Shown: positions 3,490 to 62,779 of the stretch, one piece after another
Position numbering within the stretch: the first letter of the stretch is position 1
Layout: every line of letters begins with the position of its first letter
DNA from: Erwinia pyri
GTDB lineage: Bacteria; Pseudomonadota; Gammaproteobacteria; Enterobacterales; Enterobacteriaceae
Reading direction: 5' to 3'
Assembly (NCBI RefSeq): GCF_030758455.1
Contig: NZ_CP132353.1
Coordinates: forward strand, 4,030,001-4,094,000
Length of the DNA: 64,000 bases
The notes under the pieces: generated by a model
Database searches by the model: none
Told to the model about the DNA's origin: nothing
What the model saw: only the letters and a program-made list of their open reading frames with translations
Position numbers and translations under genes: made by a program

Positions 3490-4800
3490 CTATTTGCCCT
3501 GCATCAGTTTTTCTGCGTCCGCATTGCCCTGGTCCGGCACCGTTTTACGCACTTTTGCCACATCGCTGGCGCTGACCTGCGCTTTAGCTGTATTGCCCCA
3601 GCTGGTGCGGATAAAGTTCACCACATCCGCCACCTGCTGGTCCTTCAGACGCCAGCCGAAAGCGGGCATGGTGATGCTGGAGGGCGCGTCTTTCACGCCG
3701 GGCAGCGTAGCGCCGCCAAGCACAATGTGGATCAGAGAGGTAGGATCTTCAGCCTGAACCACAGGATTACCCCGCAGCTCCGGGAAGAAGCGCTGATAGC
3801 CGCTGCCGTCGGTTTTATGGCAGGCGGCGCAGCTGTCCACATAGAGAGAGGCACCCGGCTTGCTCTCATCCCCTTGCCACAGCGCTTTCGCTACCCTCTT
3901 ATCCTCTTTAAAACCAGCCTGATTGGGATCGCGAGCGCCTAACGACTTCAGATAGCGGGCAATAGCGGTGGCATCTTCCGCAGAGAGATGCTGCAGACTG
4001 TGCTCCACCACGTCGGTCATGCCGCCAAACACGGCGGTCCGATCGTTGCAGCCGGTACGCAGGAACTGCACAAGATCCTCTTCGCTCCAGCTGCCCAGAC
4101 CATCCCGGTTGTCGCCACGCAGATTACTGGCAGTCCAGCCATCAATCGGCGCGTTGCTGCCGGAGAGGTAGTCACTGCCTTCGCTGTCGTTGAGCGCTTT
4201 TTCCTGCATAGTCAGACTGCGCGGCGTATGGCAGGCACCACAGTGCCCCAGCCCTTCCACCAGATACTGGCCGCGAGCCAGCACGGGATCCTGACCTTTT
4301 ATCGGCTGGAAGGCCTTCACATCCGGCGCAAATATGCCGCGCCAGACAGCCAGCGGCCAGCGCATAGAGAGCGGCCACATGATGTCGCTCTCCTGATTGG
4401 GCTGCTCCACTGGCTTTACGCCATGCATAAAGTAAGCGTACAACGCCCGCATATCGCTGTCGCTGACCACGGCATAGGAGGGATAGGGCATCGCCGGATA
4501 GAGCGTGTCGCCATTCTTAGCTACGCCATGACGTACCGCTTTCTGGAAGTCATCATAGCTGTAGTCGCCGATACCGGTTTTCTTGTCGGGGGTAATGTTA
4601 GTGGAGTAGATATTGCCAATCGGCGTTGCCATCGACAGGCCACCCGCAAACGGCTCGCCGCCCGCTTTGGTATGGCAGGCCACGCAGTCGCCGGCTCGCG
4701 CCAGATATTCACCACGTTGGATCTGCTCTGCGCCGTTATCATCTGCCAGCGCGGCAAAACTCGCCATGCCCAGGAACAGGGCCGGGATCATCTTCATCAT
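3490..4800 (-). CDS. Tri-haem cytochrome c subunit of membrane gluconate-type dehydrogenase
   Basis: The 436-residue protein has a signal peptide (residues 1-19, ending AALA) and three c-type haem sites: CVACH at 39-43, CGACH at 187-191 and CAACH at 324-328. This three-haem layout is that of the cytochrome subunits of gluconate, 2-ketogluconate, sorbitol and alcohol dehydrogenases of Erwinia/Gluconobacter type. It passes electrons from the flavoprotein to ubiquinone at the periplasmic face of the inner membrane. It is the last gene of the small-large-cytochrome operon, 11 bases after the GMC stop. The start has GGAG seven bases upstream. The exact sugar substrate of the complex is not determined by this subunit. 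Confidence 0.9.
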   Translation of the reverse strand: MMKMIPALFLGMASFAALADDNGAEQIQRGEYLARAGDCVACHTKAGGEPFAGGLSMATPIGNIYSTNITPDKKTGIGDYSYDDFQKAVRHGVAKNGDTLYPAMPYPSYAVVSDSDMRALYAYFMHGVKPVEQPNQESDIMWPLSMRWPLAVWRGIFAPDVKAFQPIKGQDPVLARGQYLVEGLGHCGACHTPRSLTMQEKALNDSEGSDYLSGSNAPIDGWTASNLRGDNRDGLGSWSEEDLVQFLRTGCNDRTAVFGGMTDVVEHSLQHLSAEDATAIARYLKSLGARDPNQAGFKEDKRVAKALWQGDESKPGASLYVDSCAACHKTDGSGYQRFFPELRGNPVVQAEDPTSLIHIVLGGATLPGVKDAPSSITMPAFGWRLKDQQVADVVNFIRTSWGNTAKAQVSASDVAKVRKTVPDQGNADAEKLMQGK

Positions 4801-7610: not shown

Positions 7611-9020
7611 ATGAGTGAAGTCATATCCACAGGGATGCCTCCGTACCAGCTGGTTAATAACGGCAGACTTTCAGAACGTATTGATGCCCTCCCCGCTTCT
7701 GCCGGTCTCTGGCGCTTTATCGCCCTGCTCTCGCTGGGCGGCTTCTTCGAGCTTTACGATCTGTTCCAGACGGGTTACATCAGCGGCGGCCTGGTAGCGG
7801 AGAATATTTTTCACCTCGGTACGCTGGGAGTGTTTGGCATTTCCGATCAGGCGGCTTTTGCTTCCTCTACTTTTCTTGGCTTATTTATCGGGGCGAGCCT
7901 GCTGGCGCCTTACGCCGACCGCTTTGGTCGTCGCCTGACCTTTATGTGCGCGCTGGCCTGGTACGGCTTCTTTTCCCTGCTGATGGCGTTTCAGCATCAG
8001 GCTGAATGGATTATTTTTTTCCGCCTGCTGGTGGGGGTTGGACTGGGTATTGAGCTTGTCACTATCGACACCTACCTGACGGAATCGGTGCCGAGCTATT
8101 TGCGTAGCAGAGCCTTTGCTTTCGCCTTTTTTGTGCAGTTCCTGTCGGTACCCGCCGTGGCGCTGATGTCGTGGTGGCTGGTGCCGCAGACTATTTTGGG
8201 GTTAACCGGCTGGCGCTGGGTGGTGATCGCCGGTGCGCTCTGCTCGCTGGTGATCTGGATCATCCGTAAAAATCTGCCTGAGTCGCCCCGCTGGCTGGCG
8301 CAGCAGGGGCGCCATCTGGAAGCACATCAGGGCGTCACCCGCATGGAGCTACGCTGTGGAAAACCCTCCACCGAACCTGCGCCGGATGCTATTGATACCG
8401 GTGAAATCATTCAGCAAAAAGGCCGCTTTCGCGATATCTGGCGGCCAGAATATCGTCAGCGCACGCTGATGCTGGTGGTGATGAATATCTTCCAGGCGAT
8501 AGGCTTTTTCGGCTTCGGTAACTGGCTTCCGGCGCTGCTCTCGGGCAAAGGCACCAGCATCACCCACAGCCTGCTGTACGCTTTTTTTATCACGCTTGCC
8601 TATCCGTTGGGTTCACTGATCTGCAGCCGCTATGCCGACAAAATCGAGAATAAATGGCAAATTGTCTTTGCCTCCCTGATGACTGTGGTGTTCGGCACGC
8701 TGTTCGCTTTGCTGAGTAATCCCATCCTGCTTATCGTGTGTGGCTTCTGCATTACTTACTCCAACGCCTGGCTGACCTACAGCTATCACGCCTATCAGAC
8801 GGAAGTGTTCCCGACGTTTATTCGGGCGCGCGCCGTGGGCTTCTGTTATTCGTTCAGCCGCCTCTCTACCGTGTTCAGCAGCATTCTTATCGGCCTGATC
8901 CTGCAGGTGGCGGGAACGCCGGGAGTGATTGCCTTTATCGTGGTCAGCATGCTGATTGTGATGCTGGTGATTGGTCTGTTTGGGCCAAAGACGCGCGGCC
9001 TTGACCCGGAGAAGATCTGA
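7611..9020 (+). CDS. MFS transporter, sugar-porter/metabolite:H+ symporter type
   Basis: The 469-residue protein has about 12 membrane segments, the MFS loop motif ADRFGRRLTF between TM2 and TM3, and the sugar-porter motif PESPRWL after TM6. It resembles E. coli YaaU and related putative sugar/acid symporters. It is divergent from the gluconate-type dehydrogenase operon and shares its 277-bp regulatory region with a GntR-like operator. I infer that it imports gluconate, ketogluconate or a related product of periplasmic oxidation; the sequence alone does not fix the substrate. Confidence 0.8.
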   Translation: MSEVISTGMPPYQLVNNGRLSERIDALPASAGLWRFIALLSLGGFFELYDLFQTGYISGGLVAENIFHLGTLGVFGISDQAAFASSTFLGLFIGASLLAPYADRFGRRLTFMCALAWYGFFSLLMAFQHQAEWIIFFRLLVGVGLGIELVTIDTYLTESVPSYLRSRAFAFAFFVQFLSVPAVALMSWWLVPQTILGLTGWRWVVIAGALCSLVIWIIRKNLPESPRWLAQQGRHLEAHQGVTRMELRCGKPSTEPAPDAIDTGEIIQQKGRFRDIWRPEYRQRTLMLVVMNIFQAIGFFGFGNWLPALLSGKGTSITHSLLYAFFITLAYPLGSLICSRYADKIENKWQIVFASLMTVVFGTLFALLSNPILLIVCGFCITYSNAWLTYSYHAYQTEVFPTFIRARAVGFCYSFSRLSTVFSSILIGLILQVAGTPGVIAFIVVSMLIVMLVIGLFGPKTRGLDPEKI

Positions 9021-51662: not shown

Positions 51663-51891
51663 CATTCAGCCAGATCGATGCTGTGTCAGTGTGACAATGA
51701 AAGATGAGCGCGATATATCTGACAAAGTTTAAAGCGCTCACCAACAGGTTAAAAATCAGTCCGACTGCTCATTCAAATTTACTGACTTACCTCAGCAAAT
51801 TGTTCAGCTTTTATCCTTTCATGTTTAAGCCTACTATCACTACATCGAGGCAACACGGCCTCTCAATAAAATAATCTCTGAGGAATTAAAC

Positions 51892-52101
51892 ATGAAAACC
51901 ATCAAAACTTTCGTTGCAGTTGCGGCACTTTCACTGATTTCTTTTGGTAGCTTCGCCCAGAGCATCACCGTTTCAGCTCCTACCCTGGATGATGCTGAAG
52001 CGAAAATCTCCGCTCAGGCTCTGCAGGCTGGCGCCTCTTATAAAATCACCGGCGCACGTGTTGATAATGGTGCTTACGTCTCGGCTGAACTGACTAAATA
52101 A
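51892..52101 (+). CDS. BhsA/McbA-type DUF1471 small periplasmic protein, copy A
   Basis: The 69-residue protein has a signal peptide (1-22, GSFAQ) and the DUF1471 core ISAQALQAGASYKITGARVDNGAYVSAELTK. DUF1471 proteins such as BhsA and McbA are small exported stress and biofilm proteins. GAGGAATTAAAC precedes the ATG. It is protein-identical to the gene at 53408-53617. Function is likely surface or stress related. Confidence 0.9.
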   Translation: MKTIKTFVAVAALSLISFGSFAQSITVSAPTLDDAEAKISAQALQAGASYKITGARVDNGAYVSAELTK

Positions 52102-52151
52102 AGAGTCTGGCGTTAAAACAGCGCAATGCAGTACCGCGAGATTGAAACAAA

Positions 52152-52173
52152 AAACCCTGCCTGAGCAGGGTTT
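52152..52173. terminator. Terminator module, copy A
   Basis: AAACCCTGC/GCAGGGTTT, 9-bp stem and CTGA loop. It has T-rich sequence on the plus side and an AAAAAA run on the minus side that gives TTTTTT. The flank GCGCAATGCAGTACCGCGAGA is shared by copies A, B and C, and in part by D. Confidence 0.8.
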
Positions 52174-52184
52174 CGTTGTTTTTG

Positions 52185-52482
52185 GGTAATGGTGATGGAA
52201 ACGCATCCTAATCATGTTTTCCAGACAAAATGATCATCTCCCGCCTGCCCCGAATATGAACCCTGATGGCACCTTCTTTCCTGGTAAGACGAACCCTGAT
52301 AAGCGTTCGACAATTATCAGGTTCAGATCAATTATGCTTACCGTGATTTTTATTGGCTCGAACAGAATCTGATATTCCCCCAGAAAGTCCGCTGTAAGCG
52401 AAAAGCAGACGTTAATTTCACACGCGTATAATCCTTTTGTCGGAAACGCTCTGAAGATAAAGGGTTCAAATTACAGAAGCGC
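52185..52482. other. Gap between DUF1471 copy A and the glutathione peroxidase
   Basis: Contains a 11-12 bp imperfect inverted repeat (GAACCCTGATAA 52291-52302 / TTATCAGGTTC 52314-52324, one extra C). No gene seen. Confidence 0.4.
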
Positions 52483-52965
52483 TCAGATTTCAAGTGCAGC
52501 AAGAATTATGGCTTCCATTTTTTCCGGGGTATGGATCGGTGCAAAACGTTTGAGCGGTTTGCCGTCGCGTCCGATCAGGAACTTAGTGAAGTTCCACTTG
52601 ATTCGCCCACCCAGCACGCCTGGCAATTCATTCTTCAGATAACGAAACACAGGGTGCGCTGCGTTTCCGTTGACCTCCACTTTCTCGAACATCGGGAAGC
52701 TCACCCCGTAGTTGATGTGACAGGTCTGCGCGATTTCGTCAGCGCCGCCGGGTTCCTGCTTACCGAACTGGTTACAGGGGAAACCAAGCACCATCAGCCC
52801 CTGGGCGGCGTACTTCTTGTAGAGTGATTCAAGGCCTGCGTATTGTGGCGTAAATCCACAGTGACTGGCGGTATTGACTACGAGCACCAGCTTGCCAGCA
52901 TAGTCGGCCATAGGGATGAGCTGACCACTCAGACTGGTGGCAGTAAGTTGATGAAAAGTGGTCAT
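52483..52965 (-). CDS. Glutathione peroxidase family protein
   Basis: From the ATG at 52965 (GAGG nine bases upstream) the protein has 160 residues. It has the peroxidatic-Cys region NTASHCGFTPQYAGLESLYKKY, the GFPCNQFGKQEPG motif, and KWNFTKFLIGRDG. It reduces peroxides with glutathione or thioredoxin. It sits alone between the two DUF1471 copies, so it is the cargo of that duplication interval. Confidence 0.93.
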   Translation of the reverse strand: MTTFHQLTATSLSGQLIPMADYAGKLVLVVNTASHCGFTPQYAGLESLYKKYAAQGLMVLGFPCNQFGKQEPGGADEIAQTCHINYGVSFPMFEKVEVNGNAAHPVFRYLKNELPGVLGGRIKWNFTKFLIGRDGKPLKRFAPIHTPEKMEAIILAALEI

Positions 52966-53286
52966 GTCGAAATCCTCACTATTACTCACATCGCAGATTC
53001 GTTGTGTAAGACAGGATAATTGCCTGTCGAACAGAACTACACATTTTCCACGTCCGCTGCTGGCAAAAAGCCACCGGTGCAGACCGCTTCAGGCAAAAAG
53101 CGCACTGCCGGGTGCTGAGTTAAGCCTGGCATATCCAATGAAGAGATGACGAGCTGCGAGACAAGTTGGGGTGCATGAAGCATGCGCAGAACATAAACCC
53201 ATTTACCCTGACATCCGAAAACAGAATCGTGGACTGGCACAGGCATAAAGCCCTCAACACTCAGTTAAAAAGCAACCCGAACTATT
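52966..53286. other. Gap between glutathione peroxidase and DUF1471 copy B
   Basis: The GPx promoter lies here. A high-GC patch (53037-53246) has an open minus-strand frame without family resemblance and no ribosome site, so I do not call it a gene. Nothing else recognised. Confidence 0.35.
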
Positions 53287-53407
53287 ATTCAAATTTACTG
53301 ACTTACCTCAGCAAATTGTTCAGCTTTTATCCCTTCATGTTTAAGCCTACTATCACTACATCGAGGCAGAACGGCCTCCCAATAAAATAATCTCTGAGGA
53401 ATTAAAC

Positions 53408-53617
53408 ATGAAAACCATCAAAACTTTCGTTGCAGTTGCCGCTCTTTCACTGATTTCTTTTGGTAGCTTCGCCCAGAGCATCACCGTTTCAGCTCCTACC
53501 CTGGATGATGCCGAAGCAAAAATCTCTGCTCAGGCTCTGCAGGCTGGCGCCTCTTATAAAATCACCGGCGCACGTGTTGATAACGGTGCTTACGTCTCGG
53601 CTGAACTGACTAAATAA
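53408..53617 (+). CDS. BhsA/McbA-type DUF1471 small periplasmic protein, copy B
   Basis: The 69-residue protein is identical to copy A, while the DNA differs at a few synonymous sites (for example GCC GCT CTT for GCG GCA CTT). Identity at protein level with synonymous drift suggests purifying selection on both copies. Signal peptide, DUF1471 core and ribosome site are unchanged. Confidence 0.9.
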   Translation: MKTIKTFVAVAALSLISFGSFAQSITVSAPTLDDAEAKISAQALQAGASYKITGARVDNGAYVSAELTK

Positions 53618-53668
53618 AGAGTCCGGCGCTAAAAACAGCACAATGCAGTACCGCGAGACTGAAACAAA

Positions 53669-53690
53669 AAACCCTGCCTGCGCAGGGTTT
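53669..53690. terminator. Terminator module, copy B
   Basis: AAACCCTGC/GCAGGGTTT stem with loop CTGC. Same flanks as copy A with two differences. Confidence 0.8.
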
Positions 53691-53766
53691 CATTGTTTCC
53701 AGGGAACGGTGACTATGATCATATAGTCCATTCAGGTACACCTGGGTCCGGCGCTTTACTGTGAGC

Positions 53767-54984
53767 TTACCGGGGATCCTCAGATTGTTCAGGCAGGAAG
53801 ACAGCAATTGACCAGATAAGCAACCCGCCGAGTGCCAGGGCAAAACCTGTCCAGCCAGCCGACGCCCATCCCAGGCCTGATGCGATAGCTAAACCTGCCA
53901 GCCATGGACCAAGCGCATTGGCAATATTGAATGCCACATGATTCAATGAAGCGGCTAAATTCTGGGCATCTCCCGCTACCGCTATCAGCCGCATTTGCAG
54001 TATTGTCCCGAGTCCTCCCCCACAGCCAACTGCGAATACCGACAGCGCAATTAACCCTATGTTATGTACGCTGAAAGAATAGAATAATGTTGAGAGCGCA
54101 CTCCAGAGCAGGATAAGGCCCGCTGCAGGCATAATCCCCTTTCTTACCAACCTGGATGCCATCATATTGCCGAAGGTAATGCCTGCCCCGAACAGGCAAA
54201 AAATAAGGACGGTAGCAATATCTGATACCTGCTTTATCGTCTGCAATGTTGAAGCAAGATAACTGTAAATGGCAAACAGGCCGCCGAAGCCAATGGCACC
54301 GATACCCACGCTCAGCCACACCTGTGGACGGCGTAACGCGCCAAGCTCCTGACGTATGGAGGCGTTAACACTAACCGGCTGAAGCGGCAGTATGCAGCGT
54401 AGCGACACCATAACCAGCACTGAAAAAAGTCCAATAACGGCATATCCCATCCGCCAGCCCGCCCACTGGGTAAGCAGGTTAGTCAGCGGTACGCCAAGTG
54501 TGGTAGCCAGTGCCAGCCCCATAAGAATGCGGGCTACGGCACTACTTTGACGCTGCTCTCCTGCAATAGTGACGGCAACCAGAATTGCAGCCCCAAAATA
54601 AGCCCCATGAGTCATCCCGGTGACGAAACGCAGTGCGATTAAACTTTGCAGAGTGGGAGCCAGAGCGCTGAGTAAATTACCCACAGCGAACCAGCTTAAC
54701 AACAGCATCAGCAGCAGGCGGCGTTCAACACGCGCCCCCAACACCGCCAGTAAAGGCGCGCCCAGGACAACGCCAAGTGCATAAGCGCTAACTACGTGTC
54801 CTCCTGACGGGGCATCGCCACCCAGCTCATGGGTAATGGCTGGTAAAAAACTCATAGTGGCGAACTCACCCGTACCGAAAGCGAATCCCCCTGATGAGAG
54901 GATCAGATGTGCCAGCGTGACAGATGCAGACGGGCGTGAGCGTAGGATGTTAAACATTTTTACTGGCGACATTTTCCGGTTCAC
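53767..54984 (-). CDS. AraJ/YdeA-type MFS transporter
   Basis: The 405-residue protein has 12 membrane helices and the start of an arabinose-polymer/drug-type MFS exporter (SSGGFAFGTGEFATMSFLPAI, ALGVVLGAPLLAVLGARVERR). It lies just downstream of the SDR gene; the GTG start at 54984 follows that stop by six bases, and ATGs at 54972 or 54957 are alternatives. The pair looks co-transcribed and divergent from a LysR gene. Probable efflux of a small molecule. Confidence 0.85.
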   Translation of the reverse strand: MNRKMSPVKMFNILRSRPSASVTLAHLILSSGGFAFGTGEFATMSFLPAITHELGGDAPSGGHVVSAYALGVVLGAPLLAVLGARVERRLLLMLLLSWFAVGNLLSALAPTLQSLIALRFVTGMTHGAYFGAAILVAVTIAGEQRQSSAVARILMGLALATTLGVPLTNLLTQWAGWRMGYAVIGLFSVLVMVSLRCILPLQPVSVNASIRQELGALRRPQVWLSVGIGAIGFGGLFAIYSYLASTLQTIKQVSDIATVLIFCLFGAGITFGNMMASRLVRKGIMPAAGLILLWSALSTLFYSFSVHNIGLIALSVFAVGCGGGLGTILQMRLIAVAGDAQNLAASLNHVAFNIANALGPWLAGLAIASGLGWASAGWTGFALALGGLLIWSIAVFLPEQSEDPR

Positions 54985-54990
54985 TCAGTT

Positions 54991-55608
54991 TCAGTAAGCG
55001 ACGGTAAAACGTTCACGGTGATGCTGTGGCTGCTCTGCTTCATCCAGCATGGCAACAGCGTAATCTTCCAGGGAAATCCGGCTTTCCCCGCTGCTGTTGA
55101 CCAGCAGGTGGTCTTTACCGACCCGATACTGCCCGGTACGTTCGCCAGGCACCAGCATGGCTGCCGGACTAAGAAACACCCAGTCCAGCTGTTTCTCTTG
55201 TTCTAGCTGCTGCAGAAATCTGGCGGTGCGCAATGACCCTTCCTTCCACTCGGCAGGAAAATCTTTTTGATCTACAACACGTTCACCGGAGGGCAGCAGT
55301 AGTGTTCCGGCACCTCCCACTACCAAAAAGCGACTGACCTCTGCACGTTTTACGCCTTCAATAATAGCCAGCGTGGTGCTGCCATCACTGTCTGCCCCAG
55401 GGTTGTAAGCGCTGATAACTACGTCATGCCCGGTGAGTGCAGCAGACAGATCGCCTGCATCTGCCACTTTCACACTCAGGTTTCTCTCATTTAATGAAAT
55501 GCTGTTGATATTTCTTACAATGGCGGTGACCTCATGGCCCCTTTCCAGCGCTTCAGCGAGCAGTTGAGATCCTACATAACCGGTACTACCAATAAGTGCA
55601 ATTTTCAT
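54991..55608 (-). CDS. NAD(P)-binding SDR-like protein (YwnB/NmrA-like)
   Basis: The protein (205 residues) starts MKIALIGSTGYVGSQLLAEALERGHEVTAIVRN, with GGAGG before the ATG at 55608. It carries the GxxGxxG motif and ends with PAAMLVPGERTGQYRVGKD...SRISLEDYAVAMLDE. Family members reduce flavins or act as NAD(P)-dependent regulators. A divergent LysR gene begins 142 bp away; the MFS gene follows. Confidence 0.87.
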   Translation of the reverse strand: MKIALIGSTGYVGSQLLAEALERGHEVTAIVRNINSISLNERNLSVKVADAGDLSAALTGHDVVISAYNPGADSDGSTTLAIIEGVKRAEVSRFLVVGGAGTLLLPSGERVVDQKDFPAEWKEGSLRTARFLQQLEQEKQLDWVFLSPAAMLVPGERTGQYRVGKDHLLVNSSGESRISLEDYAVAMLDEAEQPQHHRERFTVAY

Positions 55609-55749
55609 GAAACCTCCATAAATTTTCCCAATGCGCAAAAACAAACCCTGAATTTTACGGCCTGTTTTATATTGAGATTTATTATGTCATTTTAATAATG
55701 TCGTGATTATCTCGGTTTTATTTAATGGTTCTTTAAGGCAGGCTAATAG

Positions 55750-56700
55750 ATGAATGATTTAAAGCAATATGCTGTGTTTGCTGAAGTGGTCGCATCGGGC
55801 TCCATGAGCGCGGCTGCCCGCAGACTGAATCTGACTCCCTCTGCCGTTAGCCAGATTATCAGCACGCTGGAGCGACAGTTCGGCGTAAGCCTGTTACACC
55901 GCTCAACTCGCAAACTGGTGCTTACTGATGCCGGAGAGCGCTGTTACCCCCATTGTCTGAGATTACTGGAAGCCAGAAATTCTGCCGCCGCTTCGCTGGA
56001 ACTTGCCCGTGACGCGCCTGGAGGTGAACTGAAAATTGCTGCCCCTTTGGGGTTTGGTGCCTACGTAGCGCCTGCGCTTGCCCCCTTATTGGCGGAATGG
56101 CCACAGCTAAGACTGAGTCTGCTCGTTGATGATGAGCTGACAGATCTGGTGGCATCACGCATTGATGTGGCGCTGCGCGTTGGCTCATTACCTGATTCAA
56201 GTTGGGTTGGACGCAAGCTGGGTGATATGGAGACGGTATTGTGTGCCTCGCCAGCCTATCTGGAACGTTGGGGAGCGCCGCAAATGACAGATGATTTATA
56301 TCATCACCACTGGCTGTCACTGATGAATGAGGTCCATTATACGGCTACCACAAACCGTACTAACGCTACCCCTTTGCCAACGTTTCAACTTCATTTAATG
56401 GATGAAAATAATAAGCCGGAAAAGATAACGTTAGCGGTCAGAACCACCACTACTAATCAGATTACACTCCAGCAGATGTGTGAACAGGGGGCAGGCATTG
56501 CGCGACTTTTTTATCCAGATGTCCGGGCCGCCCTTGAACATGGCATTCTGGTAAGAGTCTTGCCCACTAAGCAGCTTCCTTTTTACCCGCTAACTTTATT
56601 AACATCCGAACGTCACCCGGGGCAGGCAAAAATAAAAATGGCTGTCAGTGCGTTAACCTCCTTTTTTAGTTTTTTGCCTACCGTGAAACGGCATTTTTAA
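55750..56700 (+). CDS. LysR-family regulator
   Basis: The 316-residue protein has the winged HTH MSAAARRLNLTPSAVSQIISTLERQFGVSLLHRSTRKLVLTDAGE (residues 18-64) and a full effector domain. It is divergent from the SDR-MFS pair and is probably their regulator. Its C-terminal residues (TVKRHF) extend beyond the usual length by a few residues. Confidence 0.87.
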   Translation: MNDLKQYAVFAEVVASGSMSAAARRLNLTPSAVSQIISTLERQFGVSLLHRSTRKLVLTDAGERCYPHCLRLLEARNSAAASLELARDAPGGELKIAAPLGFGAYVAPALAPLLAEWPQLRLSLLVDDELTDLVASRIDVALRVGSLPDSSWVGRKLGDMETVLCASPAYLERWGAPQMTDDLYHHHWLSLMNEVHYTATTNRTNATPLPTFQLHLMDENNKPEKITLAVRTTTTNQITLQQMCEQGAGIARLFYPDVRAALEHGILVRVLPTKQLPFYPLTLLTSERHPGQAKIKMAVSALTSFFSFLPTVKRHF

Positions 56701-56858
56701 TGAGTTAACGCCTTCTCTTTTTAACGTGACTGATTTCTGCCTGCTTTTACAGTGAAGGAAATAACCAGGAATATGAGTGCATAATTTTTTAGCTGAATTT
56801 TAATTGTCGGTAAACCATGCCCTTTACTCTCTGAGCAAAAAAGTTGCCGATAGATATT

Positions 56859-58232
56859 TCAGGGAAATCGTAGCGTAAACCGGTTAACGCCGTGCTCGCT
56901 ATGCACCTCGCAACTTCCCTGATGTAATCGCATGATGCTACGTACAATAGAGAGCCCCAATCCGCTGCTGCCCTGATGGCGTGAAGTTTCGGCACGCCAG
57001 AAACGATCGAAAATACGCGCCTGATGTTCAGCATTCAGCTCAGGGCCATGGTTTTCCACTACCAGTTCGGTGCCCTGCAGCTGCGCCTTGCTAAAGACAC
57101 GGATCGTGGTGTCACGATTGCCATAGCGCAGCGCATTCGCCATCAGATTTGCCAGCGCGCGTTGCAGCAGCTGCGGATCGGCATACAGTTCGCCCTGCAG
57201 CGCCATCTCCAGCCGCATCGCCTTTTCTTCCGCCATACCGTCAAAATATCCCTGCAGTTTCTCGCCGAGCTGCGCCAGATCGATGCGCTGTACATCCATC
57301 GCCTGACTGGCATCTTCCGCTTTGGCAAGAAAGAGCATGTTGTCGATCATCTTCGCCAGCCGTTCCAGCTCTTCATAATTGGAACCCAGCAACGCCTGAT
57401 AGTCGCTGACGCTGCGCGTCTGGCTCAGCGCCACCTCGGTCTGGCCAATCAGCGTCCCGACTGGCGTGCGCAGTTCATGCGCCATATCCGCAGAAACCTG
57501 GCTCAGCTGCTGATAACCCGACTCAAGACGACTCAGCATCTGGTTAAAGGCGGCGACCAGCGGCTGCAATTCAGCGGGAGCCTGATTGGGTATGCGGTGT
57601 GACAAATGGCGCACATCAATCGCATTCGCTTCCGTCGCCAGAGTGCGCAGCGGGGACAACCCCCGTCGCACCAGCCAGATACTGATCGCTGCCACCAGCA
57701 ATGCTGTCAGTACAGTTGCCAGAATGACCCGATCGCGGTAGCTGTTCATTGTTTGGGTACGGTCACTCAACAGGCGACCAGTAATGATCTCAATCTGCCC
57801 GGTGCCATCACGCGTTGGCGTGAGAGCCGCCGCCGAGATAAACGGCGTGCCGTCTTCGGCTTCAAGATGGTGTACCGACGCCAGCGTCAGCGGCTGGTCA
57901 GCAGGGACGGGGGTAATGGCAGGAAGCGGACGCTGGCCAGGATTGACCACAATGAGCGGTGGCTGCCCGGGGAAACGCAGCACCAGCAAAGATTCGGTAT
58001 TGCCAAGCATGTTGGCGAACAAATGCGGTTTCTGCTGGATCAGCGTAATGGCATCTTCATCGCGCAACAGTGTGCGGATCTGATCTATACGCGTCAGCAG
58101 TGCGCCATCATCACGCACGCCAATCTGGCTTGCCAGCGATTGGTAAAGCGCGAAGCCGCTGAATGAAAAAATGACAATCACCGTGGCGCTCAGCATCAGC
58201 GACAGACGTGCCGCAAGGGAGCGTTTCCTCAT
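56859..58232 (-). CDS. Sensor histidine kinase, heavy-metal (CusS/IrlS-like) type
   Basis: From the ATG at 58232 the protein has 457 residues: a membrane helix (about 10-31), a periplasmic domain (about 32-158), a second helix (about 160-183), HAMP, then the phosphoacceptor His in SADMAHELRTPVGTLIG and the ATPase N-box ANLMANALRYG and GSSGLGLSIVRSIMRLH. The ATG overlaps the regulator stop by the bases ATGA, so the two are coupled. The G1 box DxGxG is replaced by ENHGPE, as in CusS-type kinases. The signal is unknown. Confidence 0.9.
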   Translation of the reverse strand: MRKRSLAARLSLMLSATVIVIFSFSGFALYQSLASQIGVRDDGALLTRIDQIRTLLRDEDAITLIQQKPHLFANMLGNTESLLVLRFPGQPPLIVVNPGQRPLPAITPVPADQPLTLASVHHLEAEDGTPFISAAALTPTRDGTGQIEIITGRLLSDRTQTMNSYRDRVILATVLTALLVAAISIWLVRRGLSPLRTLATEANAIDVRHLSHRIPNQAPAELQPLVAAFNQMLSRLESGYQQLSQVSADMAHELRTPVGTLIGQTEVALSQTRSVSDYQALLGSNYEELERLAKMIDNMLFLAKAEDASQAMDVQRIDLAQLGEKLQGYFDGMAEEKAMRLEMALQGELYADPQLLQRALANLMANALRYGNRDTTIRVFSKAQLQGTELVVENHGPELNAEHQARIFDRFWRAETSRHQGSSGLGLSIVRSIMRLHQGSCEVHSEHGVNRFTLRFP

Positions 58233-58903
58233 GATTCTGCTTCGCAACGATAGCCTACGCCGTAAACGGTATGGATCAGCGGTTGGGCAAACGGGCCATC
58301 AATTTTCTGCCGCAGGCGTTTAACCGCCACATCCACCACGTTGGTGTCGCTGTCAAAGTTCATATCCCATACGCGGGAAGCAATCACGGTGCGCGTCAGC
58401 ACCTCGCCGGGATAGAGCAGAAACAGATGCAGCAGATTAAACTCTTTGTTGGTGAGATCGATGCGCTGACCGCCGCGCTCGACGCGTCGTTTAAGAATAT
58501 CGAGCTGCAAATCGGCAAGCGTCAGAATATCCGGCAGCTTATGCTGGCCGCCGCGTCGCAATTGCGTACGAACGCGCGCCAGCAGTTCGGCAAATGAAAA
58601 GGGCTTGACCAGATAATCGTCTGCTCCCAGCTCCAGCCCTTTAATGCGATCTTCCAGAGTCCCTTTGGCGGTAAGGAATATAACTGGCGCATGAATTTGT
58701 TTATCCATCGCCGCCATCACTTGCCACCCATCCATGCCGGGCATCATCACGTCCAGTAAAATCAAATCGTAATGATGCTCCTGGGCATAGAACAGACCCT
58801 CCTGGCCATTTTCTGCCACATCCACGATGAAGCCCGCCTCCGTCAACCCTTTGCGCATGTAATCGCGTGCTTTGGCTTCATCTTCAATGACCAAGATTTT
58901 CAT
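58229..58903 (-). CDS. OmpR-type response regulator
   Basis: The 224-residue protein has a receiver domain (1-120, phospho-Asp in LILLDVMMPGMDG) and a winged HTH with RRVERGGQRIDLTNKEFNLLHLFLLYPGEVLTRTVIASRVWDM and VVDVAVKRLRQKID. It is a CusR/CopR/IrlR-like regulator. It lies between the hydrolase (22 bp) and its kinase in a three-gene operon. It likely binds the TGACA repeats at 59738-59777. Confidence 0.92.
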   Translation of the reverse strand: MKILVIEDEAKARDYMRKGLTEAGFIVDVAENGQEGLFYAQEHHYDLILLDVMMPGMDGWQVMAAMDKQIHAPVIFLTAKGTLEDRIKGLELGADDYLVKPFSFAELLARVRTQLRRGGQHKLPDILTLADLQLDILKRRVERGGQRIDLTNKEFNLLHLFLLYPGEVLTRTVIASRVWDMNFDSDTNVVDVAVKRLRQKIDGPFAQPLIHTVYGVGYRCEAES

Positions 58904-58925
58904 GCGCGTCTCCCTGGAACAGGTT

Positions 58926-59687
58926 TTAAGGTTGTGCGTGTTGCGCGGCTTGCTCGATCAATTTCGCAACTTCGTCAGGATGTGACTGATACACCGAATG
59001 GCTGGCACCGGCAATTTCCACCGTATAGCTGTGTGCACGTTTGGCGTACATACGCTCCAGATCGGGATTAATAATTTTGTCAGCTTTCGCCACCATGTAC
59101 CAGCTGGGCCTGGTTTTCCACGCCGGATCGGGAATATTAGCGGTGAACACTGCCGCGTTCGTCGGCATCTGAGCATGTGCTTCAAAATCGGCCTGTGCGG
59201 CAGGCAAGTCAGCAGCGAAATCGCTGTGATAATATTGTGGCGCGATAGTCAGATAGCCGTCGCCCGACCTTGCAAACGGATGGGCGCTGTTGGGGAATTT
59301 CTTGCCGTTACTGGCTTCAGTTTCGCCGTTATCCAGCGCATGCGCGGCAATATAGACCAGGCCTGCCACCTTACTGTCGTTACCGGCTTCCGTGATGATT
59401 GCGCCGCCGTAGCTGTGGCCGACTAAAATCACCGGGCCATTTTGCTCATCGATTATGCGTCGCGTCGCCGCCACATCTTGTGGAAAGCCGGTCAGCGGCT
59501 CCTGTACCAGCGTCACATTATAACCGTCATGCGTTAAACGATCGTACACCGGACGCCAGCCCGCGCCGCCAACGAAAGCACCGTGCACCAGCACAATGTT
59601 ATGCACCGGCTCTGCCTGAGCTTGCGCCGCGCCGCCTGCGATTGCCAGCAGCATGCCCGCTGCAAGGGTAATTTTGTTCAGTTTCAT
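58926..59687 (-). CDS. Secreted alpha/beta hydrolase
   Basis: The 253-residue protein has a signal peptide (MKLNKITLAAGMLLAIAGGAAQA) and VHNIVLVHGAFVGGAGWRPVYDRLTHDGYNVTLVQEP, the nucleophile elbow GHSYGG, and a C-terminal His in AGASHSVY. It is a paralog of 46111-46800. It is the first gene of a hydrolase-regulator-kinase operon, so the enzyme is probably produced in response to the kinase signal. Confidence 0.9.
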   Translation of the reverse strand: MKLNKITLAAGMLLAIAGGAAQAQAEPVHNIVLVHGAFVGGAGWRPVYDRLTHDGYNVTLVQEPLTGFPQDVAATRRIIDEQNGPVILVGHSYGGAIITEAGNDSKVAGLVYIAAHALDNGETEASNGKKFPNSAHPFARSGDGYLTIAPQYYHSDFAADLPAAQADFEAHAQMPTNAAVFTANIPDPAWKTRPSWYMVAKADKIINPDLERMYAKRAHSYTVEIAGASHSVYQSHPDEVAKLIEQAAQHAQP

Positions 59688-59737
59688 TTTAATACTCCTG
59701 TCTGGAAAGGTTCGCCTACAGGATATGAAACGGGTTC

Positions 59738-59777
59738 TGACATTCGGGTGAGCCAGTTATGACAAAAAAATGACATT
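59738..59777. promoter_or_regulatory. 11-bp-phased TGACA direct repeats, candidate response-regulator site
   Basis: TGACATT at 59738, TGACAAA at 59760 and TGACATT at 59771, spaced 22 and 11 bp. OmpR-family regulators bind such direct repeats in helical phase. The site lies between the hydrolase-regulator-kinase operon and the divergent DUF4142 gene, so both could be targets. Confidence 0.6.
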
Positions 59778-59940
59778 GGTCGAAACGTGACTGCCGTTTC
59801 TCCGTTGAGAACCATAACTCAAACTTATGTCCCGAATCGTTGATCTACTATACTGACCATTGCAGTTGTAATTTACCTACGAGGCTGCGCACGGTTGATT
59901 ACCTGACATCAACCTTACCCATGACCTTCAGGAGAACAAA

Positions 59941-60495
59941 ATGCAGAAGAGTAAAACCTTGAAAGGGCTGTTGGCCCTATCGGTAGTAGCAGCTATGTTC
60001 AGCACTGTTAGCGTGCAAGCCCAAACGCCGACGAGCGCCGCAGATCAGACCGCATCGAGCGCAAAACTCAGCTCCGGTGACGAAAAAGCGTTGAAGGATA
60101 TGGCGCAGGCCGATATCAATGAAGTTGCCGCCGCCAAAATCGCGCTGAGCAAGGCCGAAAGCAGCGACGTCAAAGCGTTCGCTCAGAAGATGGTCGAAGA
60201 CCACGGTGCTGCCTTGACCAAAGTACAGACGGTCGCCCAGCAAAAGGGCGTGGCGCTGCCGACTGAGCCGGACGCCAAACACAAAACCATGGCCGCCAGT
60301 CTGGAAAAGCAGAGCGGCGACGCATTTGACAAGATGTATATGGAAAACGCCGGTACTAAAGACCACAAAATGGTGCTGTCGAAACTGCAGAGTGATGCCA
60401 AAAAGATCAAGGATCCTGATGTGAAGGTCCTGGCCGATGCGCACACGCCGGTCGTTGAGCAGCACCTGAAGGCTGCCCAGCAGATGTCGATGTAG
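59941..60495 (+). CDS. Exported DUF4142 protein
   Basis: The 184-residue protein has a signal peptide (1-27, ending SVQA) and the DUF4142 four-helix ferritin-like domain: DMAQADINEVAAAKIALSKAESSDVKAFAQKMVEDHGAALTKVQTVAQQKGVALP. Family members are often found near two-component systems in soil beta- and alphaproteobacteria; function unknown. CAGGAG lies 11 bases before the ATG. It is divergent from the hydrolase-regulator-kinase operon and shares its regulatory region. Confidence 0.88.
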   Translation: MQKSKTLKGLLALSVVAAMFSTVSVQAQTPTSAADQTASSAKLSSGDEKALKDMAQADINEVAAAKIALSKAESSDVKAFAQKMVEDHGAALTKVQTVAQQKGVALPTEPDAKHKTMAASLEKQSGDAFDKMYMENAGTKDHKMVLSKLQSDAKKIKDPDVKVLADAHTPVVEQHLKAAQQMSM

Positions 60496-60663
60496 TCAGG
60501 TAAGTCAATATTGACTGTAAGTGTGCCGAGCGATGCTCGTCCATGAGTGGTCGCAAGCTGACGCTCACTCTACGTGTTGACGAATGGAATTGACCCCGAG
60601 CAGCCGCCCGACAGGCTGCATGGGGCAAATATTGCGAAGGACCGCTTCTGGTACAGAGCCGTT
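60496..60663. other. Junction between DUF4142 gene and DUF1471 remnant
   Basis: Sequence of unknown origin between the DUF4142 stop and the breakpoint of the third DUF1471 copy (about 60660). It carries no gene or recognised IS end. Confidence 0.35.
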
Positions 60664-60735
60664 GGTGCCTCTTATAAAATCACCGGTGCACGTGTTGATA
60701 ACGGTGCTTATGTCTCGGCTGAACTGACTAAATAA
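60664..60735 (+). pseudogene. 3' remnant of a third DUF1471 gene
   Basis: The last 23 codons and stop of the DUF1471 gene (GASYKITGARVDNGAYVSAELTK) are intact, but everything before is lost. The following bases match the terminator module. It combines variants of copies A and B, so it is a separate paralog. Confidence 0.85.
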
Positions 60736-60785
60736 AGAGTCCGGCGCTAAAACAGCGCAATGCAGGACCGCGAGATTGAAACAAA

Positions 60786-60807
60786 AAACCCTGCCTGAGC
60801 AGGGTTT
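60786..60807. terminator. Terminator module, copy C
   Basis: AAACCCTGC/GCAGGGTTT stem with CTGA loop. The minus strand gives a T-run. Same module as A and B, here behind the truncated DUF1471 gene. Confidence 0.8.
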
Positions 60808-60857
60808 CATTGTTTGCAGACTAAACCAGAGCAATTGACTACTGACCACCCGCACTA

Positions 60858-61922
60858 TCAGTCATCGGAGTTGGTCAGCGTAGCCCTGAAGTGAGGCAGG
60901 CTCTGCGGATAATTTTGCTGAATAAACTCAATCATTTTTTCACGGACGTAACAGCGTAAATCCCAGGCTATAGGGGAATTCTGAGCGGTCATCAACAATC
61001 TGATTGTCATGGTTTTTTCACTCGTATCAGTAACCTGAAGCACCTGAGTCTGTTGATCCCAGAGTTTTGTTTCACTGAGTACTTTTTCAAAATGCTGACG
61101 GAGAGGCTCTAACGGCATCGAATAATCAACATAAAGAAATACAGAGCCTAATATTTGTGCGTTATTACGCGTCCAGTTCTGAAAGGCATTTTCTGTAAAA
61201 TAGGTGATAGGCAGGACCAGTCGGCGCAGATCCCAGATACGCACAACGACATAGGTCAGGTTTATCTCCTCAATCCAGCCCCACTCCTTTTCAACTACCA
61301 CCGCATCATCAATTTTTATAGGCTGCGTAAAGGCTATCTGAATACCGGCAAACAGATTGACAAGCGACTTCTGCAGGGCAAAACCAATGATGATGCCAGC
61401 AACCCCTGCCCCGGCCAGGATGGTTGTGCCGAATTTTCGAATGCCAGGGAAACTGAGCAGGATCAGAGAAACACAGAATGAGACGAGGAGTACGATAGCG
61501 ACCTTTTTTACATAGATTATCTGAGTACGAACTTTACGGGCACGAAGATTATTTGAAAGATTAATGTCATAACGTATAAAAAGCATATCCTGCACAACAT
61601 TCGTCAGGCGAATTAAAACGGAGCAAAATGATAATATGATGAATATATTAACGGTATTTGTAATAATATAAAGGTAAGTTGGGTGAATGTTAATATAATT
61701 AACGCCGATATTTATTAACATCAAGGGAATGAAAAGAAACATCGATCCACGAAGATTTTTTTCAAGTGATTTGAATAGCTTTCGGTCACGATTCTGCCAG
61801 TAGCGAATAAACTGGAGAAGTATAAATCGGGCCAGGAACCCCACTATGAATGAGAGAGTGACGAGCAATAAAGCAGGTACCCATGATGGAGCACCAGATA
61901 ACTCACCGAATATCGTTGGCAT
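60858..61922 (-). CDS. MscS-family mechanosensitive channel
   Basis: The 354-residue protein has about five membrane helices, then the MscS core with the pore helix AGAGVAGIIIGFALQKSLVNLFAGIQIAFTQPIKIDDAVVVEKEWGWIEEINLTYVVVRIWDLRRLVLPITYF. The N-terminal extra helices make it larger than MscS itself. It should open under hypo-osmotic shock and release solutes. It lies between terminator copies C and D. Confidence 0.9.
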   Translation of the reverse strand: MPTIFGELSGAPSWVPALLLVTLSFIVGFLARFILLQFIRYWQNRDRKLFKSLEKNLRGSMFLFIPLMLINIGVNYINIHPTYLYIITNTVNIFIILSFCSVLIRLTNVVQDMLFIRYDINLSNNLRARKVRTQIIYVKKVAIVLLVSFCVSLILLSFPGIRKFGTTILAGAGVAGIIIGFALQKSLVNLFAGIQIAFTQPIKIDDAVVVEKEWGWIEEINLTYVVVRIWDLRRLVLPITYFTENAFQNWTRNNAQILGSVFLYVDYSMPLEPLRQHFEKVLSETKLWDQQTQVLQVTDTSEKTMTIRLLMTAQNSPIAWDLRCYVREKMIEFIQQNYPQSLPHFRATLTNSDD

Positions 61923-62230
61923 TTCTTTCCCTTATATTCAGACAACAACTATCAGTTGTCATATCAGTAATAAAACTTCAGTAACCGTTGTTTTCCCGGT
62001 TATCTGAGGATTAAATGGTTAACGCACATAAGCTTAGCTGACTGACGTTTAACGCAAAATAACCATGAAAATAAATCAATATAAAGGGTAGCATAAACGC
62101 AACTGACCTCACCCAGTAGGCTCCAGAGACGCTGAAAAAGCGCAAGGCAGTGCCGTGAGACTGAAACAAAAAAACCCTGCCTGAGCAGGGTTTCACTGTT
62201 TTTATGGAACGTTGACTGAAGCGAGATCGC
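61923..62230. other. Gap between the MscS-type gene and ssb
   Basis: The MscS promoter lies near the left edge. The terminator copy D (62172-62193) and about 70 bases of flank similar to copies A-C occupy the right half. No gene seen. Confidence 0.45.
62172..62193. terminator. Terminator module, copy D (ssb terminator)
   Basis: AAACCCTGC/GCAGGGTTT with loop CTGA. On the minus strand it is followed by TTTTTTT, so it is the ssb terminator. The flank GCAAGGCAGTGCCGTGAGACTG is a diverged version of the flank of copies A-C. Confidence 0.85.
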
Positions 62231-62779
62231 TTAGAAAGGAATATCGTCGTCAAAATCCATTGGCGGTTCATTGTTAGCCGGAGCATTGTTCTGCTGTGGC
62301 TGCTGCGGACGGGACTGCTGGCCACCGCTGAACTGGTTGTTGCTGCCGCCCTGCGGCTGCTGAGGCTGGCCCCAACCGTTGTTGTTGCCCTGTCCACCGC
62401 CGCCTGCCGGTGCGCCTGCACCGCCACCCTGACGGCCACCCAGCATCTGCATGGTGCCGCCAACGTTGACCACCACTTCCGTAGTGTATTTCTCTACGCC
62501 AGCCTGGTCAGTCCATTTGCGGGTCTGCAGCGCGCCTTCGATATAAACCTGGGAACCTTTACGCAGGTATTCACCCGCCACTTCCGCCAGCTTGCCAAAC
62601 AGCACTACGCGGTGCCATTCAGTTTTCTCTTTGGTTTCGCCGGTCTGCTTGTCACGCCAGCTTTCAGACGTGGCCAGGGTAATGTTGGCAACGGCGCCGC
62701 CATTTGGCATGTAGCGGACTTCCGGGTCTTGACCCAGGTTGCCCACCAGGATCACTTTGTTTACGCCTCTGCTGGCCAT
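62231..62779 (-). CDS. ssb: Single-stranded DNA-binding protein
   Basis: The 182-residue protein (E. coli 178) has the OB-fold domain [26 protein letters not shown]...[21 protein letters not shown], a Gly/Gln/Pro-rich linker and the conserved acidic tip DFDDDIPF that binds partner proteins. It coats single-stranded DNA in replication, recombination and repair. It is divergent from uvrA around a LexA box, as in E. coli. Confidence 0.97.

Follow-up and report, generated by a model that had tools for sequence, protein, structure and literature searches.

Duplicated DUF1471 genes with an ssb-like terminator as possible recombination portals in an accessory region of Erwinia pyri

Much of the accessory DNA of enterobacteria is found in variable regions in which no integrase is apparent. 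We examined a 64,000-nt stretch of the 4.76-Mb genome of Erwinia pyri (contig NZ_CP132353.1; G000:C1:4030001-4094000 in our numbering, in which G and L numbers denote genomes and loci), here called the window, in which four similar terminator modules lie among accessory genes close to ssb. An earlier note on this DNA had taken the modules for repeated terminators that divide the region into blocks of cargo. We find that the modules are parts of a duplicated DUF1471 transcription unit and not stand-alone terminators, and we give an about even chance to the overall reading that the window holds a recombining, duplicated DUF1471 gene with an ssb-like terminator and that DUF1471 units may act as recombination portals. 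The four copies and their neighbour ssb are as follows.

51771..52181, + strand: copy 1 of the DUF1471 unit, comprising an upstream region, the gene (51892-52101), a 3' flank and the hairpin (52152-52173)
53287..53698, + strand: copy 2 of the DUF1471 unit, with gene (53408-53617) and hairpin (53669-53690); its protein is identical to that of copy 1
60663..60815, + strand: copy 3, a 5'-truncated DUF1471 remnant with 3' flank and hairpin (60786-60807)
62120..62223, no strand assigned: copy 4, the ssb terminator region, with hairpin (62172-62193), matching the 3' flanks of copies 1-3
62231..62779, - strand: ssb

The hairpin AAACCCTGC-N4-GCAGGGTTT stands at 52152, 53669, 60786 and 62172, each time on the + strand (mean 0 in 100 shuffles), together with a 21-base flank at 52121, 53638, 60755 and 62140 that has 0, 1, 1 and 3 mismatches, respectively. 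The pattern search and shuffles thus bear out the four same-orientation modules described in the earlier note, and the repeat comparison agrees with its assignment of three of them to DUF1471 genes or a remnant and of the fourth to the ssb terminator. The exact hairpin pattern has only four places in the genome, all in this region, and BLAST of the 78-bp module returned the same four. An ordinary genome-wide terminator would be expected at many unrelated genes; a module common all over the genome, the case which the earlier note had set against its own proposal, is therefore excluded. The hairpin has the G+C-rich stem and T run of an intrinsic terminator, with a predicted stem energy between about -14 and -15 kcal/mol. 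On the minus strand the stem is followed by six T, and the run on the plus strand is interrupted, such that the uninterrupted run is that in the direction of ssb. No Rfam family matched at its gathering score. Close to the modules, spacers share a short GTCCGCT...AAAAAGC-like motif (52387, 53052, 53082 and 60640), which may be a chance occurrence.

The repeat is much longer than the terminator alone. Copies 1 and 2 share ~410 bp consisting of the upstream region, the DUF1471 gene and the terminator, and they agree at 117/121 positions upstream of the gene, 204/210 in the gene and 74/80 in the 3' flank with the hairpin, whereas the agreement drops sharply outside the unit (27/41 and 31/67 on the left, 24/56 on the right). 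The gene, which is BhsA-like, has 69 codons in both copies; its product in copy 1 scores 27.5 bits against Pfam family PF07338 (DUF1471/YdgH_BhsA-like; cut-off 27), and the differences between the two genes are silent only. Copy 3 retains 23 DUF1471 codons and the 3' flank. Of the repeat proposed in the earlier note the four modules thus stand, but what is repeated is a whole DUF1471 transcription unit and not merely a terminator. We infer gene conversion between copies 1 and 2.

The similarity of these units to copy 4 begins right behind the DUF1471 stop codon, and the gene itself has no share in it. Specifically, the stop-to-hairpin flanks of copies 1, 2 and 3 match copy 4 (0/2000 plain shuffles each), and the gene interior gave no match to it (229/2000 and 430/2000 shuffles); past the hairpin, towards ssb, copy 2 (1/2000) and copy 1 (15/2000) match copy 4 as well. 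Because the 3' flanks of copies 1-3 match the DNA beside ssb, we infer, as the simplest reading, that this flank was probably captured from the ssb side. ssb itself was found in 36 of the 37 genomes of the genus, and its 3' flank was compared in 31 of 35 relatives (the other four failed the full-length filter). A CCCTGC/GCAGGG stem is present at ssb in four of the 31 (L092, L096, L097 and L105), L113 has a near match, and the rest have other sequences; in addition, the end of a G030 contig (L012) reads like the same ssb junction. The DUF1471 genes of these relatives have other sequences 3' of them and, among the matches listed, copy 1 ceases to resemble other DUF1471 loci at or before its stop codon.

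We counted direct repeats with a length of 100 bp or more and an identity of 80% or more that cover the 3' end of a gene, using 142 of 152 loci (10 redundant ones were dropped, among them L204, of which the sister L206 was kept) and other open reading frames of at least 100 amino acids for comparison. Such repeats were found for 21/132 DUF1471 genes versus 4/2119 other genes, and two of these four are insertion sequence copies in L112 while the other two overlap a DUF1471 repeat; inverted repeats were found for 0/132 and 1/2119, respectively. The enrichment in DUF1471 genes is directly observed, and its p-value (3e-23) is only indicative because pairs count twice, L156 and L162 may represent one event, and many loci were chosen for DUF1471. 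An earlier count, now superseded, gave 16/105 DUF1471 genes versus 8/2246 others (118 of 127 loci). The 21 repeat-bearing genes are spread over 11 loci: the window, L209 in the same genome, G026, G021, G008, Phytobacter diazotrophicus, Pantoea AS-PWVM4, a Pantoea metagenome-assembled genome, Klebsiella BIGb0407 and two Siccibacter species. Scanned cargo between the copies includes a RelE-type toxin and a helix-turn-helix (HTH) protein (G026), a BrnA antitoxin (G021), a RhuM protein (Phytobacter), a NicO-type transporter (G023), and MCP and GGDEF genes (L209); three cargo proteins of Pantoea AS-PWVM4 gave no match above the cut-off, and the Klebsiella locus has only DUF1471-like sequence between its copies. 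Cold-shock genes, taken as a control family, include at least one adjacent pair (G026) by eye among the matches listed. A convergent downstream neighbour as a rule for DUF1471 genes was tried and rejected (61/130 DUF1471 genes versus 793/2041 others, p = 0.08); in the window, every module faces a convergent gene.

One empty and occupied pair of sites was observed among relatives. G023 and G008 have a pair of DUF1471 copies with a NicO-type gene inside it, the whole flanked by MFS and AraC genes, whereas in G030 these MFS and AraC genes (94% and 91%) enclose one DUF1471 gene and no NicO gene; in the alignment with G030, the right copy and right flank match unbroken. Because G020, G003, G022 and G019 have DUF1471 near the same AraC/TetR genes with no NicO match, gain of NicO is likelier than its loss. 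The DUF1471 copies of G023 and G008 look homogenised: of 15 sites at which the four copies divide two against two, nine group within species, three by position and three crosswise, and within-species grouping is the pattern that conversion between copies would leave. A second comparison gave a different outcome. In Siccibacter (L156 and L162), four genes, C1-C4, lie between two DUF1471 copies, while Leclercia (L158) has C2-C4 between the same outer genes, a single DUF1471 copy and no C1. Because Leclercia has C2-C4 with one copy, the second Siccibacter copy moved without C2-C4.

In L209 (G000:C1:2093000-2109000), a 185-bp segment composed of an xdhC tail (77 nt), a hairpin and a DUF1471 3' end occurs twice with 91% identity (4207-4391 and 7863-8047) around the MCP and GGDEF genes; the outer genes are open frames and each segment copy is cut off on its cargo-facing side. 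A circle carrying the segment and the cargo and entering by a single crossover, or a tandem duplication followed by an insertion, would give this arrangement. A 4660-bp Klebsiella pneumoniae ColRNAI plasmid (L219; NZ_CP024195.1) carries DUF1471 beside a gene annotated as an anti-phage dCTP deaminase; a small circle of this kind would suit single-crossover entry. In G026 (L192 8304-9417; G026:C1:125001-145000), the RelE-type toxin/HTH pair has a full DUF1471 gene on one side and the 3' remnant of that gene on the other, and this arrangement is located between bcsZ and bcsG. Because several genomes (G000, G024, G036 and G007) have bcsZ and bcsG close together with no DUF1471 gene, the whole G026 stretch is an insertion. 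Its hairpin is absent from the bcsZ-bcsG junctions compared, and no site with a single DUF1471 copy at bcsG or xdhC was seen (37 genomes each). The start of the remnants varies (about codons 46, 43 and 58).

Between the modules of the window lie the following genes, and the gene content of each interval is as the earlier note had it.

52483..52989, - strand: glutathione peroxidase gene (gpx), between copies 1 and 2
53767..59687, no single strand: MFS, SDR, LysR, histidine kinase, response regulator and hydrolase genes, between copies 2 and 3
59941..60495, + strand: DUF4142 gene, a direct neighbour of mscS in G165
60858..61922, - strand: MscS-type channel gene (mscS), between copies 3 and 4

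No integrase or transposase was found among ten window proteins scanned with Pfam, such that the region does not qualify as an island with its own recombinase. Relatives of the histidine kinase-response regulator-hydrolase genes lie on a large plasmid of Pantoea sp. SOD02, relatives of mscS and DUF4142 on a large plasmid of P. piersonii, and a DUF4142 relative beside gpx on a large plasmid of Chimaeribacter arupi; presumably, the cargo entered by gene transfer. Within the 149 genomes, gpx has relatives in 27 others, NicO in 5 and mscS in 12 others, and the MFS gene has only three other matches (45-47%). The interval from the soxS side to ssb is variable across the 35 relatives, a few of whose contigs stop short (L119, for example, has 2.9 kb). 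Of the gpx, MFS, SDR, LysR, histidine kinase, response regulator, DUF4142 and mscS genes, none was found beside ssb in these relatives at the thresholds applied. As separate observations, the whole interval 35000-62200 (soxRS side to ssb) is an accessory hotspot wider than the modules, and mscS has a G+C content of 42% compared with 51-56% in the other cargo genes measured.

We suggest that a DUF1471 gene formerly convergent with ssb may have acquired the ssb terminator; that the resulting ~410-bp unit would then have been duplicated along the accessory region without a change of orientation, giving two intact copies and one 5'-truncated copy; and that homologous recombination, as gene conversion, would keep the intact copies similar. 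The intervening genes, with their relatives on Pantoea and other large plasmids, would have arrived by gene transfer. More generally, DUF1471 units appear to form direct repeats recurrently, often with genes between them, and may thereby act as recombination portals, and a unit could also be copied without adjoining genes. Recombination at DUF1471 repeats is supported in relatives and plausible in the window. Several observations weigh against this reading. Selection could partly account for the high identity of copies 1 and 2; copy 3 has no match to copy 4 beyond the hairpin (291/2000 shuffles); and no change at the window locus was seen in the 35 relatives, the species being represented by one strain. 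At the thresholds used, no DUF1471 gene lies near the gpx, NicO and mscS relatives in other genomes of the family (loci with 1.5-kb flanks and 20 longer gpx/mscS stretches), an exception to cargo without DUF1471 being the L209-type MCP-GGDEF pair, which in G021 is also near a DUF1471 gene in another arrangement. The left-flank match of G030 (the MFS end) stops ~120 bp short of the repeat, within-species grouping fails at six of the 15 sites of the G023 and G008 copies, and the second copy in Siccibacter versus Leclercia was gained or lost without C2-C4, much like copy 3 of the window. The idea of recombination between modules thus draws support from G023 and G008 versus G030 and from the nine within-species sites and loses it where a copy moved alone. 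The Siccibacter/Leclercia comparison also lowers the odds of the broadest form of the proposal, which we hold only tentatively, at perhaps one chance in four: that DUF1471 units are integrase-free portals across Enterobacterales through which toxin-antitoxin pairs, metal exporters and regulators would enter by homologous recombination, with direct repeats or 5'-truncated remnants left behind, and that recombination between the repeats would swap cargo.

Among the alternatives, plain tandem duplication followed by unrelated insertions, with repeats that selection maintains and that have no role in DNA movement, is unlikely but survives best. Adjacent DUF1471 copies do occur (L165, and in the passages we draw on from PMC4092069), and the exclusively silent differences between the genes of copies 1 and 2 are what selection on the protein would leave. 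However, copies 1 and 2 are also 97% identical at silent sites and in their upstream DNA, whereas the outer flanks have decayed, and other genes in the same loci are nearly without such repeats.

The model of the earlier note, in which each stretch between modules is separately mobile and homologous recombination between the modules brings about its gain, loss or amplification, is improbable in our view, even though a site with a single copy and its bracketed counterpart exist in sister species and the repeats share one orientation. In G165, which belongs to another genus of the same family, DUF4142 and mscS are direct convergent neighbours, 133 bp apart and with identities to the window of 86.6% (680 nt) and 83.5% (1083 nt), respectively, whereas in the window 362 bp with copy 3 separate them. 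Because the two genes directly adjoin in G165, copy 3 is no seam between separately acquired blocks; judged from this comparison, it appears to have been placed inside a pre-existing DUF4142-mscS pair, or to have been lost in G165. This adjacency is the strongest result against the block model and contradicts the claim that each module is a block border. Siccibacter compared with Leclercia likewise argues against the model, and none of these blocks was seen moving; as borders of one-block cassettes, the window modules are not proven.

An equally low probability attaches to the DUF1471-terminator unit being a small mobile element that copies itself into intergenic sites. The position of copy 3 inside a pair that is adjacent in G165, the DUF1471 stretch of G026 between genes that are close neighbours elsewhere, and the copy gained alone in Siccibacter versus Leclercia are as such an element would leave them, but inverted repeats are lacking (0/132) and all four places lie within one 10-kb stretch. 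That a recombinase acts in trans on the repeats, as proposed for the E. coli H47 island, which is without an integrase, carries long imperfect direct repeats and is described as excising in a recA background in the passages we draw on (PMC3191183), we regard as very improbable because the remnant starts differ, many repeats span the whole gene, and no recombinase was found among the ten window proteins scanned.

If the recombining DUF1471 repeats are as we suggest, one small multi-copy gene family supplying homology would be a simple and testable rule for landing sites and would explain the strings of gene remnants at such sites. Independently of this, the window is a neat case of a gene seemingly taking over the terminator of an essential neighbour, ssb.

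Several known systems resemble parts of this arrangement. In E. coli, tandem repeats with terminators lie downstream of rnpB; as in the window, a 3' end with its terminator is repeated directly, but no genes are known to lie between the rnpB repeats. In L009 (~1270-2300; G002:C1, near 3202000-3203000), seven matches to a similar hairpin form a tandem array with ~118-bp spacing, which we take to resemble the known terminator repeats behind rnpB. No description of DUF1471 repeats around cargo was found in the titles and abstract starts of the open-licence PMC papers that the searches listed. The DUF1471 (YhcN/BhsA/McbA) family is reported to have multiple paralogues per enterobacterial genome, with adjacent copies (PMC4092069); the likeness lies in these multiple and adjacent copies, and cargo between copies, captured terminators and remnants go unmentioned in the passages of that paper that we draw on. 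The H47 island of E. coli likewise holds accessory genes without an integrase between long imperfect direct repeats and, in the sections consulted, excises, and its empty sites have a hybrid repeat; it differs in that its authors infer site-specific recombination in trans (PMC3191183). In Streptococcus, transformation can create merodiploids via repeats, according to the part of that work used here (PMC3784515). Finally, homology-facilitated illegitimate recombination, described in the excerpts we rely on as rare in E. coli (PMC3240628), has been proposed for arrays at Vibrio type VI secretion system immunity loci (PMC5361080). While that proposal, as far as the same excerpts go, concerns immunity arrays, an event with one homologous anchor and one non-homologous join can result in displaced or truncated copies, a likeness to the window.

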